In this document: positions 15,647 to 19,684 of the stretch, one piece after another
Position numbering within the stretch: position 1 is the stretch's first letter
Layout: each line of letters begins with the position of its first letter
Virus record (IMG/VR): IMGVR_UViG_3300046777_000609
Coordinates: 1-30,396 of that record
Length of the DNA stretch: 30,396 nt
Source: a virus
Strand: one strand, 5' to 3'
The notes under the pieces: model-generated
What the model saw: only the letters and a program-made list of their open reading frames with translations
Databases searched by the model: none
What the model was told of the DNA's origin: nothing
Made by a program: the position numbers and the translations under genes

Positions 15647-16333
15647 ATGACGACCAGCGGTACATATGATTTCGTTGATACCGAACAGGTAGACATCATC
15701 ACCGAAGCGTTCGAGCGCTGCGGCAGGAACCCCGCGTCTCTGTCATCTCAAGAGGTCAACAGCGCCACCAGATCGTTGAACTATCTCTTCTCGGACTGGG
15801 CCAACGATGGCCCTAATCTGTGGGAGGTGGATCTCGTTTCGCTACCTCTGGTTGCCGGGCAGGCGTCTTACACGCTGGCTGAGGAAACGGTCTACATCCT
15901 GCAGGCCTACACCCGGATCACGACTGGTGGCGTCAACAACGACATCATGATCCAAGGGATCAGCCGGGCTGAGTACGCCGCGATCCCGAACAAGTCGCAG
16001 CAGAGCCAGCGCCCATTCCAGTATTATTTCCAGCGCACAGCCGTGCCGACGCTGTACCTCTGGCAGGTGCCGGATAACAACAACGTCACCCTCTACTACT
16101 ACCGCATGAAGATCCAACAGGACGCAGGCGCTCTGGTCAATACGCTGGATGCTAACAACCGCTGGATGGAAGCGATCGCCGCTGGTCTCGCCATGAAGCT
16201 GGCCACCAAGTTTGCTCCCGATCGTCTGGGCATGCTGGTTCCGCAGTACGAGGCAGCCTATGCCCGCGCCAAGGCTGAGGATCGTGAGCGCGTGCCGCTG
16301 CGTATCACCATTGATCCGATGGGAGGTATGTGA
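15647..16333 (+). CDS. Head-tail adaptor (P22 gp4-like)
   Basis: A 228-residue protein that probably binds the portal after packaging and starts the tail. It has the pattern I associate with P22 gp4-like tail accessory factors: an N-terminal helical hairpin (DIITEAFERCGR, then ATRSLNYLFSDWANDGPNLW), the conserved 'L-x-AGQ-x-SYTL' strand region (LVAGQASYTLAEETVYILQ), a beta domain ending in YLWQVPDNNNVTLYYYRMK, and a C-terminal helix (NNRWMEAIAAGLAMKLATKF). The 57-nt gap upstream shows nothing notable. A second adaptor-type protein is encoded at 18501. Confidence 0.8.
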   Translation: MTTSGTYDFVDTEQVDIITEAFERCGRNPASLSSQEVNSATRSLNYLFSDWANDGPNLWEVDLVSLPLVAGQASYTLAEETVYILQAYTRITTGGVNNDIMIQGISRAEYAAIPNKSQQSQRPFQYYFQRTAVPTLYLWQVPDNNNVTLYYYRMKIQQDAGALVNTLDANNRWMEAIAAGLAMKLATKFAPDRLGMLVPQYEAAYARAKAEDRERVPLRITIDPMGGM

Positions 16334-16683
16334 TGCAGTACGCGCACGGTCAGGGCCGCAAGCGGCGCACCAAGCCGAAGTTCGATGCTGACAACCCTCA
16401 GGGCATTGCGATCTGCGATGGCTGCGGCTTTCTTGTTCAGCACAACCACCTCAGGGAGAAGAAGGACTATCGCGGCGGGACCACGCCTGTGGGCCTGAGC
16501 CTTATGGTCTGCGCCTCCTGTGACGACGTTCCTCAGCCATACTATCGGCGCCTGCTGCTCAAGCCGGATCCGATTCCGCTGAAGAACCCCCGCCCCGATT
16601 CAAACGACGCAACCACCAACGCTCAGACTACAGCGGCTAATGCATACTCGCTGTATCTGAACCAGCTGTATGGGCTAGCATAA
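16333..16683 (+). CDS. Zinc-ribbon virion-associated protein
   Basis: A 116-residue protein; ATG 16333 overlaps the preceding stop and GGGAGG (16321-16326) lies 6 nt upstream. It carries two CxxC pairs, CDGC near residue 35 and CASC near residue 62, spaced as a zinc ribbon. A basic N-terminus precedes them, and 'DPIPLKNPRPDSND' follows, a phrase I recall from zinc-ribbon proteins that sit beside adaptor genes in podovirus-like phages. The C-terminus is Ala/Thr/Asn-rich and helical. It may assist head-tail joining; the function is not established. Confidence 0.65.
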   Translation: MQYAHGQGRKRRTKPKFDADNPQGIAICDGCGFLVQHNHLREKKDYRGGTTPVGLSLMVCASCDDVPQPYYRRLLLKPDPIPLKNPRPDSNDATTNAQTTAANAYSLYLNQLYGLA

Positions 16684-17300
16684 TGGCGAACGTAAAGATC
16701 ACAGACCTCACTGCCGCCAGCACTCCGCTTGCTGGCACAGAACTGTTTGAGACGGTTCAGGGCGGTAATAGCCGCAAGGTCAGCGCCGCCAACATTGCCA
16801 ACTCGGCGACCAGCATCGCTTATGGCAGCATTACCGGACGGGCGTATATTTCTGCCTATAGCACGGCCGATCAGACGGGTAGCGTTTCCGCTGGCACTGC
16901 CGTTCGTCTTGCTACGACGGCATTCAGCAGCGGCATCAGTATTGCCAACGATGGCAGCGGCAATCCGACGCGTATCACCTTCGCAGCCGCCGGCACCTAT
17001 ATGATTGCGCCGAGTCTGCAGCTGGTCAACAGCGATACAAGTGATCATGACGCCACTATCTGGTTTGCAAAGAATGGTTCCAACATCGCCAACTCGGCAA
17101 CCAAGGTGACGGTTCCCAAGGCTGCTGATGGCGGCGCAATTTATTTTCAGATCATCTACTACGAGCAGGTTACCGCAGGCCAGTACCTTGAGATCTTCTG
17201 GCTTCCGGAAAACATAGCCGTTACATTGGATTACACTGCCGCTGGGGCTATCGCCCCGGCTATCCCATCGGCTATCGTTTGCTCCGAAAGGATCGCTTGA
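16683..17300 (+). CDS. C1q-like jelly-roll fibre protein
   Basis: A 205-residue protein starting in a 1-nt overlap with the previous stop. The N-terminus VKITDLTAASTPLAGTELFE matches the attachment segment found in many phage fibres. Residues ~60-205 read as a C1q/TNF-like jelly roll: ITFAAAGTYMIAPSLQLVNS, then ATIWFAKNGSNIANSATKV, then YYEQVTAGQYLEIFWLPE and a strand ending PSAIVCSERIA. These trimeric domains commonly bind ligands on fibre tips. It probably adds a second adhesin beside the large fibre at 19681. Confidence 0.72.
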   Translation: MANVKITDLTAASTPLAGTELFETVQGGNSRKVSAANIANSATSIAYGSITGRAYISAYSTADQTGSVSAGTAVRLATTAFSSGISIANDGSGNPTRITFAAAGTYMIAPSLQLVNSDTSDHDATIWFAKNGSNIANSATKVTVPKAADGGAIYFQIIYYEQVTAGQYLEIFWLPENIAVTLDYTAAGAIAPAIPSAIVCSERIA

Positions 17301-17662
17301 TGATTGAGCAACTGATTGCCCGGATATTTCATACCCGAAATGTGGCGCACTGGTCGCACTGGCGCGCCAAGGGTGATGGAAGCTATGCCCGCCATCAGGC
17401 GCTGGGGGATTTTTATGATGGCGTCATCGATGCCCTCGATCCTCTTGTTGAGGCCTATCAGGGTGCTTACGATCTGGTCGGTAGCATTCCTCAGGCTGAC
17501 TCGAAGGCAAAGGATATTCTGGGTTTGCTGCAAGATGACGCGGCTTGGATCGAGGCTCACCATGAAGAGATCTGTCGCGGCAATCGCGCCATTGCTAACC
17601 TGATAGATACCCTCACTGGAGAGTATCTCTCCACGATCTACAAGCTGCGTAACCTGAAGTGA
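17300..17662 (+). CDS. Miniature Dps/ferritin-like protein (DUF5856-like)
   Basis: A 120-residue helical protein starting at ATG 17300 in a TGATG overlap, with AAGGA at 17288-17292. Residues 17-55 follow the Dps pattern: HWSHWRAKGDGSYARH, then LGDFYDGVIDALDPLVEAYQG. His20, His32, Asp47 and Glu51 reproduce the H-x11-H-x14-D-x3-E spacing of the E. coli Dps ferroxidase centre (H51, H63, D78, E82); the position of Dps D67 is Gly36, with Asp37 next to it. A second half with EAHHEE and two helices could complete a four-helix bundle, though it is much shorter than Dps (~167). I recall phage relatives as DUF5856. Iron or DNA binding is inference. Confidence 0.72.
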   Translation: MIEQLIARIFHTRNVAHWSHWRAKGDGSYARHQALGDFYDGVIDALDPLVEAYQGAYDLVGSIPQADSKAKDILGLLQDDAAWIEAHHEEICRGNRAIANLIDTLTGEYLSTIYKLRNLK

Positions 17663-17670
17663 GGTCTGTG

Positions 17671-17928
17671 GTGGACTACCAGATTCTTTTTAACATCGCC
17701 TTCGGTGCTTGCGGCTTTTTCGGGGGGTGGGTGCTAAATAACCTCAGTAAGGCCATCGAGCGCCTCGATGCCGATGTGCGCGCCATGCCCATGACCTACG
17801 TCTCGAAGGACGACTGGCGTGACGCCATGCGCGAGATGAAGGAAGAGATGCGCTCCGGCTTCGATAAGATCGACCATACGCTGGGCACGATCTTTAAGAA
17901 GCTGGACCGGAAAGAGGATAAAGCCTGA
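17671..17928 (+). CDS. Membrane-anchored coiled-coil protein of lysis cassette
   Basis: An 85-residue protein. I choose GTG 17671 because GAGG (17661-17664) lies 6 nt upstream; in-frame GTGs at 17659 and 17668 are alternatives. Residues 1-~25 form one membrane segment (YQILFNIAFGACGFFGGWVL) followed by a charged helix with heptads (DAMREMKEEMRSGFDKIDHT) and a Lys-rich end. One N-terminal anchor plus a periplasmic coiled coil fits an inner-membrane spanin or an accessory holin. Adjacency to the endolysin supports a lysis role. No lipoprotein partner (outer spanin) is evident nearby. Confidence 0.6.
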   Translation: MDYQILFNIAFGACGFFGGWVLNNLSKAIERLDADVRAMPMTYVSKDDWRDAMREMKEEMRSGFDKIDHTLGTIFKKLDRKEDKA

Positions 17929-18320
17929 TGGCAATCGTACTCGGAGAGCGCTCACTGTCTCGTCTGGTAGGCGTGCACCCCGACATGGTTCGTGTCGTGA
18001 AGCGCGCTGCGGCCACTTCTGACCTTGACTTCACGGTACTGGAGGGGCTGCGCACACTGGATAGGCAGCATCAGCTTTTCAAGCAGGGCGCAACCAAGAC
18101 GATGAACTCGCGCCACCTGACGGGCCACGCAGTCGATCTGGCTCCGATGCTGGACGGCAAGGTATCTTGGGACTGGCCGCTTTATCACAGGCTAGCCAAG
18201 ATCGTGAAGGCTGCGGCTGCAGCCGAAAATGTCCCAATCACTTGGGGCGCTGACTGGCGGTCTTTTAAAGATGGGCCGCATTGGGAGCTTCCTTGGAAGC
18301 AATACCCGAAAGGAAAATGA
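17928..18320 (+). CDS. Endolysin, M15 L-alanyl-D-glutamate peptidase-like
   Basis: A 130-residue peptidoglycan peptidase that should cut the peptide stem and lyse the cell. The zinc site is visible as SRHLTGHAVDLAP (His63, Asp70) and DGPHWEL (His118). Asp115, three residues before the last His, matches the catalytic Asp/His spacing of T5-type endolysins. LEGLRTLDRQHQLFKQG (residues 38-54) is the conserved core preceding the site. The length fits single-domain M15 endolysins such as T5 Lys, with no separate cell-wall-binding domain. There is no signal peptide, so it needs a holin, probably one of its two neighbours. The start overlaps the previous stop. Confidence 0.9.
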   Translation: MAIVLGERSLSRLVGVHPDMVRVVKRAAATSDLDFTVLEGLRTLDRQHQLFKQGATKTMNSRHLTGHAVDLAPMLDGKVSWDWPLYHRLAKIVKAAAAAENVPITWGADWRSFKDGPHWELPWKQYPKGK

Positions 18321-18500: not shown

Positions 18501-19154
18501 ATGCCTGCTGCGATGACTTATAACAGCCTGCTTAATGACATGCGCGCCTATCTTGAGCGCGGTGCTACGCTTGCTACTGACCCTACGGTTTACGAGCAGC
18601 TGCCCAATCTGATTAATCTGGCGGAACGGCGGCTCGCTCGTGAACTGAAGATCCAAGGTACAGTCACGGCAATGACCGGCGTCTTCACGGCCGGCACCGC
18701 TGTCTATGCCAAGCCCAATCGCTGGCGTGAAACGGTCAGCATGAACTGCTCGACTACCGCAGGTGGCAATGTGCGCCGTGAGGTTTTCCCGCGCTCGTAT
18801 GAATACTGCCGCACCTACTGGCCGGATGACACCCAGACCGGGATCCCCCGCTTCTATGCGGACTATGATTACAGCAACTGGCTGATCACCCCCACACCCA
18901 GCGCTGCACTGTCGTTCGAGGTGCTGTTCTACGAGCAGCCGCCCTATCTGGACGATACGACGCAGACCAACTGGTGGACCGAATACTCTCCGAATGCGCT
19001 GCTGTACGCGTCGCTGCTGGAGGCGGCTCCGTTCCTGAAAAATGCAGAGGCTATCCAGATCTGGGAAGGCTTCTATAACCGCGCTATCGCTTCGCTGAAC
19101 GGCGAGGATATGCGCCAGATTGTTGACCGTGGCATCATTCGCAGGGAAGATTGA
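18501..19154 (+). CDS. Phage adaptor protein (SU10/T7 gp11-like)
   Basis: A 217-residue protein resembling the adaptor/tail tubular A family that links portal to nozzle. Features in order are TYNSLLNDMRAYLERG, an 'LPNLINLAERRLARELKIQG' helix, a beta domain starting TVTAMTGVFTAGTAVYAKP, GIPRFYADYDYSNWLITPTP, then FYEQPPYLDD, and a C-terminal helical region NALLYASLLEAAPFLKNAEA ending in the Y-x-RAIASLNGED helix. The length is close to T7 gp11 (196). It is the second adaptor-type protein in the window, and its stop overlaps the homing endonuclease start. Confidence 0.8.
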   Translation: MPAAMTYNSLLNDMRAYLERGATLATDPTVYEQLPNLINLAERRLARELKIQGTVTAMTGVFTAGTAVYAKPNRWRETVSMNCSTTAGGNVRREVFPRSYEYCRTYWPDDTQTGIPRFYADYDYSNWLITPTPSAALSFEVLFYEQPPYLDDTTQTNWWTEYSPNALLYASLLEAAPFLKNAEAIQIWEGFYNRAIASLNGEDMRQIVDRGIIRRED

Positions 19155-19684
19155 TGTATCAGGTGTACAAAATAACCTGCTCCTCAAACGGGAAAGTTTA
19201 TATTGGGTACACCTCAAAGGGATATCTTGCGCGATTTGAAAGCCACATTTCAAATGCACGATGGAAGCGCAAAACTGCATTGTACGACTCAATCCGCCTT
19301 TATGGGCCTGAGGCCTTTAGCGTGGAACTGCTAATTGAGTGCGAAAGTCATGCAGATGCTTGCGCTCATGAGATTAACTTAATTAAAGAATTAAACAGCC
19401 TTATTCCCTTTGGCTATAATATGACTAAAGGGGGCGATGGGGTTCCGCTTACTGATGCTCAACGCGCCGCCGCTAGTGCGAAGAAGCGCGGAAGATTTAC
19501 GGAAAAACAAAGAATCGCTGCAGATAGACGAATAGGCATCAAGGCTTCTGATGAAACACGCAAAAAGCTCAGTGATATGCGCAAAGGGAAAAAGCAAAGC
19601 CCTGAATGGATACGCAAAAGAACTGAGAGTATGATGCTCACAAGGGCATTGAATAAGGCAGAAAAGGTGCAGGTGGCGCTATGA
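19154..19684 (+). mobile_element. GIY-YIG homing endonuclease gene
   Basis: A 176-residue free-standing homing endonuclease that cuts alleles lacking it. The GIY-YIG domain shows VYKIT (4-8), KVYIGYT (14-20), the catalytic Arg in YLARFESH (Arg27), the catalytic Glu in AHEINLI (Glu73) and the usual end FGYNMTKGGDG. Residues ~145-165 read as a NUMOD3-type DNA-binding motif (SDETRKKLSDMRKGKKQSPE). The gene is AT-richer than both neighbours. Its start overlaps the adaptor stop (TGATG, 19152-19156) and its stop overlaps the fibre start (ATGA, 19681-19684), so it does not interrupt either reading frame. Confidence 0.88.

Follow-up and report, generated by a model that had tools for sequence, protein, structure and literature searches.

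A short late-gene phage protein of family DUF5856 with a predicted Dps-like fold and invariant metal-site residues

The window (the whole stretch of 30,396 nucleotides analysed here) is a 30.4-kb virus contig that encodes a terminase (1316), a portal (2860) and a capsid protein (9357), together with fibre genes, an M15 endolysin and two SU10-type adaptors. On its forward strand lies an open reading frame that translates to 120 amino acids and a stop, the subject of this analysis (Table 1). The ATG stands behind a Shine-Dalgarno-like AAAGGA and shares one nucleotide with the stop of the preceding gene (TGATG at 17298-17302), and the stop in turn overlaps the next start (GTGA at 17659-17662), so that translation within a run of late genes is, to judge from the sequence, very probable. 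The only in-frame upstream start listed is a TTG seven codons earlier, and a scan for promoters and terminators gave matches at chance level only. The first-pass annotation had set a 120-residue protein between a fibre gene and the lysis cassette, and this arrangement holds, with a fibre-like frame upstream and a PHROG 462 frame and the M15 endolysin downstream. The fibre-like protein has no Pfam or PHROG match; 54 of 155 loci have similar sequence close to the gene, which is in some places matched by the fibre encoded at 19681 as well. The Dps-like and lysis genes are flanked by the two SU10-family adaptors, both of them common in related loci. Between the second of these and the fibre gene, overlapping both, lies a gene for a GIY-YIG homing endonuclease, which is probably a recent mobile insertion since, of about 155 related loci, only 4 have similar genes.

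Table 1. Features in and around the Dps-like gene, in window coordinates.
Feature	Position	Strand	Evidence
SU10 adaptor family protein, first	15647..16333		2e-11
Upstream neighbour, fibre-like 205-aa protein, 1-nt overlap with Dps-like start	16683..17300	+	no Pfam or PHROG match
Shine-Dalgarno-like AAAGGA, 8 nt ahead of ATG	17286..17291	+	direct sequence reading
Dps-like DUF5856 / PHROG 858 protein, 120 aa	17300..17662	+	Pfam PF19174 6e-13, phrog_858 2e-13, AF2 pLDDT 95.9
His17 codon, equivalent to the leading His of H. pylori NAP 'HNxHW'; invariant in DUF5856	17348..17350	+	127/127 distinct sequences, 21/21 unbiased; NAP alignment
His20 codon (Dps H51)	17357..17359	+	127/127 and 21/21
His32 codon (Dps H63)	17393..17395	+	127/127 and 21/21
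Gly36 codon (Dps D67), substituted ligand	17405..17407	+	Asp/Glu in 7/21 diverse relatives
Asp47 codon (Dps D78)	17438..17440	+	127/127 and 21/21
Glu51 codon (Dps E82)	17450..17452	+	127/127 and 21/21
Downstream neighbour, 89 aa, PHROG 462 'lipoprotein'	17659..17928	+	E 3e-8
M15-peptidase endolysin	17928..18320	+	PF13539 2.5e-12; phrog_465 5.5e-60
SU10 adaptor family protein, second	18501..19154		7e-29
GIY-YIG homing endonuclease	19151..19684		phrog_314 7e-36

The protein is a further member of an already catalogued phage family, DUF5856 / PHROG 858. Comparison with DUF5856, a check proposed at first pass, gave a score of 50.1 bits against a curated cutoff of 34.6 (E 6e-13); its best PHROG is phrog_858, labelled 'starvation-inducible transcriptional regulator' (E 2.2e-13), and all 30 of 30 aligned relatives match DUF5856 and PHROG 858 too. 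Length and motif are likewise those of the family, and the late-gene setting is common to most of the lineages examined, whereas the clade of the window protein differs by a three-residue insert between H20 and H32 and by a glycine at the position of Dps D67. Searches by tblastn recovered 49 phage records with the window protein as query and at least 1,435 with a relative from Dickeya phage LIMEstone1, extending from T2, RB49 and RB43 to Ackermannviridae and jumbo phages, and IMG/VR holds at least several hundred DUF5856-type loci. Bacterial and archaeal genomes, when scanned, yielded only two small contigs from metagenome-assembled genomes, labelled Alphaproteobacteria and Beijerinckiaceae, which are probably phage themselves. 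Because of these labels, and because the near relatives are Caulobacter phages, we infer an alphaproteobacterial host for the window virus. A literature search for DUF5856 by name found nothing, and a broad search for Dps- or ferritin-like proteins of virions gave no match. The phrog_858 label taken literally would make the protein a transcription regulator, a function for which the label is the sole argument; it was apparently inherited from the naming of Dps, the protein is acidic and has no DNA-binding fold, and such a role is barely credible.

AlphaFold2, run on a 30-sequence alignment, predicts a four-helix bundle (helices 2-21, 28-56, 73-92 and 96-118) with a pLDDT of 95.9, and the best solved matches of this model are Dps proteins, in keeping with the likeness proposed at first pass: M. 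smegmatis Dps2 gives a Z of 14.4 and E. coli Dps one of about 13, with an rmsd of 2.2-2.4 over 118-120 aligned residues and model residues 1-120 lying on Dps 32-166. Foldseek gave TM values up to 0.83 with an E of only 0.01. A Z near 13 can be general among helical bundles, and sequence was therefore tested too. A distant member of the family with the short gap between H20 and H32 has the same predicted fold (pLDDT 94.0, Dps Z 12-13.9). Compared as profiles, DUF5856 and Dps align with an E of 9e-5 and a score of 32.1, the four ligands being paired in the alignment, against control scores of at most 22.1 for 60 column shuffles and 13.5 for the reversal. Single-sequence search of the PDB reached Dps at E 0.045 at best, insufficient alone, and PDB Dps matches of E 0.02-0.08 are weak as well; the window protein does not match Pfam Ferritin (PF00210), which four of the 30 relatives match below cutoff (best 0.0027). 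By itself, sequence ties the protein to Dps only weakly, and this counts against the interpretation favoured below.

With E. coli Dps, H. pylori NAP and M. smegmatis Dps2 the window protein has in common the four-helix fold and the equivalents of H51, H63, D78 and E82, and it also bears the HxxHW motif of the NAP type. Unlike Dps, it lacks the N-terminal DNA-binding tail (model residue 1 aligns with Dps residue 32) and the BC helix (there is no helix at 57-72, and the protein is about 15 residues shorter than the aligned Dps stretch 32-166), as well as any Pfam Ferritin score. Where Dps has R83 and W160, the window protein and most of DUF5856 carry Ala52 and Tyr114. As these additional features of Dps are absent or variable, neither cage formation nor DNA binding should be assumed, and with the tail, the BC helix and Arg83 missing, and Asp67 too in this lineage, the protein is a relative of Dps and not a proven Dps. 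The protection of phage DNA suggested at first pass has no basis beyond the fold, the protein being acidic (pI 5.6) and without a Lys-rich tail. E. coli Dps has a similar overall pI, yet binds DNA through its tail. True Dps proteins, also phage-encoded and of the Dps-type four-helix fold, are known from Gratiaviridae and from Lactobacillus and Streptomyces phages, and have been proposed to raise the oxygen tolerance of the host (PMC8008677; PMC6669764); these are recognisable by sequence, whereas DUF5856 is a separate, shorter family.

In the translation, the positions to compare are H17, H20-W21-R-A-K-G25, H32, G36, D47 and E51, and addition of a constant 31 to the window numbering yields E. 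coli Dps H51, W52, G56, H63, D67, D78 and E82. The first-pass annotation had read H20, H32, D47 and E51 at the exact spacing of the Dps ligands, in the same HW-x3-G context and with a single ferroxidase-region position changed, and each of these readings is correct, the changed position being Dps D67, here Gly36. The pattern H-x11-H-x14-D-x3-E arises in 0.09% of shuffles of the window protein and the fuller HW-x3-G-x6-H-x14-D-x3-E in none of 200,000, and the metal-site pattern is absent from every other frame of the window.

H17, H20, H32, D47 and E51 are all invariant in 127 distinct sequences, a set biased in that its IMG/VR loci were partly found by patterns containing H32 and E51. For this reason a second, unbiased set was built from tblastn matches, comprising 20 phage records and the window protein (n=21), most of them less than 35% identical to the window protein. 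Here exactly five of the 120 positions are invariant, and they are the same five. That the four residues named beforehand should fall among them has a probability of about 6e-7 (116 over C(120,5)) if invariant positions are random, and the invariant list from a comparison of ten Dps proteins likewise includes the same four ligands. Since the only five positions kept across 21 diverse phages are those of the site, the alignments indicate strong selection on the Dps-type site. Conservation in homologues of the four ligands named at first pass is thus complete, whilst the claim of an 'intact ferroxidase spacing' stands in part: the distances H32-D47 (15) and D47-E51 (4) hold without exception among the relatives, as in Dps, but that from H20 to H32 is 12 in the window clade and 9 in 17 of the 21. 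Exact spacing was therefore rejected as key evidence, the H20-H32 gap being three residues shorter in those 17. The position of Dps D67 carries Asp or Glu in seven of the 21, among them T2, RB49 and phiR1-37; in the Dps comparison set, too, D67 varies. N100 and D103 in helix D, together with Y114, are nearly invariant in the 127-sequence set and less so in the set of 21, and may serve a function specific to DUF5856.

In Dps the ferroxidase site spans two subunits, the His residues coming from one, and Asp78 and Glu82 from its two-fold partner. Helix B of the model runs unbroken from 28 to 56, which places H32 about 22 A from D47 in the same chain (a rise of 1.5 A for each of 15 residues), so that the two can share a site only across a dimer. 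A predicted structure with the four residues far apart had been named at first pass as evidence against the idea, a test that is ill-posed for a monomer model because H32 and D47 sit on one helix, as do H63 and D78 in Dps. Given the joint invariance of both halves of the site, a Dps-like dimer is the best explanation. It is slightly more probable than not that the window protein is a late, virion-associated member of DUF5856 that forms a two-fold dimer with metal sites between the subunits, the metal most likely being iron. It would then be a stripped four-helix member of the Dps/ferritin superfamily, expressed late and joining the virion, in which two copies would pair about a two-fold axis. 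His20 and His32 from one copy would come opposite Asp47 and Glu51 from its partner, and two metal sites of the Dps kind would result. The metal might stabilise the dimer in the particle, or be oxidised and held there, and in the latter case could limit peroxide and iron damage during assembly, storage or entry.

That such a protein belongs to the particle is suggested by its relatives. Dickeya phage LIMEstone1 ORF78 was detected in virions by 3 peptides (28% coverage; PMC3296691 Table 2) and Salmonella phage Sajous1 gp217 in CsCl-purified virions by 10 spectra, with a Phyre2 'Ferritin' assignment of 96.7 (PMC10892097, 2024), counts that are low and could reflect carry-over. Profile matching in this analysis identifies gp217 as a DUF5856 gene (1.3e-28). 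Both Ackermannviridae proteins belong to the same family and have the same invariant residues as the window protein, to which they are about 26-30% identical; their phages are enterobacterial and myovirus-type, whereas the window derives from a virus that has SU10-type adaptors and probably infects alphaproteobacteria. In phiR1-37, g280 is annotated as 'phage structural protein'. With homologues in purified particles, the virion part of four-helix fold offered as one option at first pass appears likely. The authors of the Sajous1 study went further and proposed that gp217 contributes to a 'ferrojan horse' entry system, in which iron in a tail protein would be offered to the iron-uptake receptors of the host; the same work reports that infection of Salmonella needs neither TonB nor FeoB (PMC10892097), and we regard this route as very unlikely.

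Gene neighbourhoods point in the same direction in many lineages, where DUF5856 genes lie beside portal, connector, tail, fibre, endolysin/lysozyme/M15 peptidase and holin genes. In T-even and related phages, however, the gene adjoins rI, and in the T-even phages tk as well, outside the structural module, and the T4 member (rI.-1/MobD.6) is frameshifted in two laboratory stocks and intact in another (PMC8573959), from which it follows that the gene is dispensable in such stocks. Together with the missing D67 ligand of this lineage and the low virion counts, the rI/tk setting and the dispensability in T4 count against the favoured metal-binding dimer of the particle. Two further explanations compete with it. 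Were the protein purely structural, the ferritin-like fold would have been reused and the conserved residues, playing no part in redox chemistry, would bind a structural metal (such as Zn) or be linked in a hydrogen-bond network; the homologues in virions, the adjoining portal, connector or fibre genes and the variable D67 position all fit, but such a protein would not be expected to keep just three His, one Asp and one Glu invariant, and T4 laboratory stocks manage without an intact copy, which makes this distinctly improbable. A working Dps-like ferroxidase of the late-infected cell, oxidising Fe(II) with peroxide and protecting replicating or packaged DNA against oxidative damage, would leave traces in virions by carry-over. 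The Dps fold and site conservation agree with it, as does the complete five-ligand set in the seven relatives with Asp or Glu at the D67 position, and the proposals made for true phage Dps offer a precedent; the missing Lys tail, BC helix and Arg83, the acidic pI, the late structural/lysis position and the homologues in virions speak against it, and we consider it improbable.

A likeness of these proteins to Dps or ferritin was already known from PHROG labels and from one paper, which reported a 'ferritin' in virions (PMC10892097). The present analysis adds three points: in phages very distant from one another the residues of the metal site alone are invariant, they imply a two-fold dimer, and the DNA-binding features of Dps are missing. 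The family, carried by T-even relatives and by Ackermannviridae studied for phage therapy among its records, is currently filed as 'unknown function' or 'transcriptional regulator'. Invariance of the site and virion proteomics turn this vague label into a testable question, namely whether phage particles carry an iron-oxidising or metal-locked protein, and at what place. A bolder generalisation, offered tentatively and with fairly low expectation, is that DUF5856 comprises minimal, non-cage, virion-borne two-subunit metal-oxidising proteins in a large share of tailed phages, which would handle iron or peroxide within the particle or as the DNA enters. In two BFVD models annotated as 'prohead protease' from uncultured phages (A0A6J7WIS1 and A0A6J7XDU5), one stretch matches the same fold, and these are possible cases of a ferritin-like domain fused to a capsid-assembly protein.
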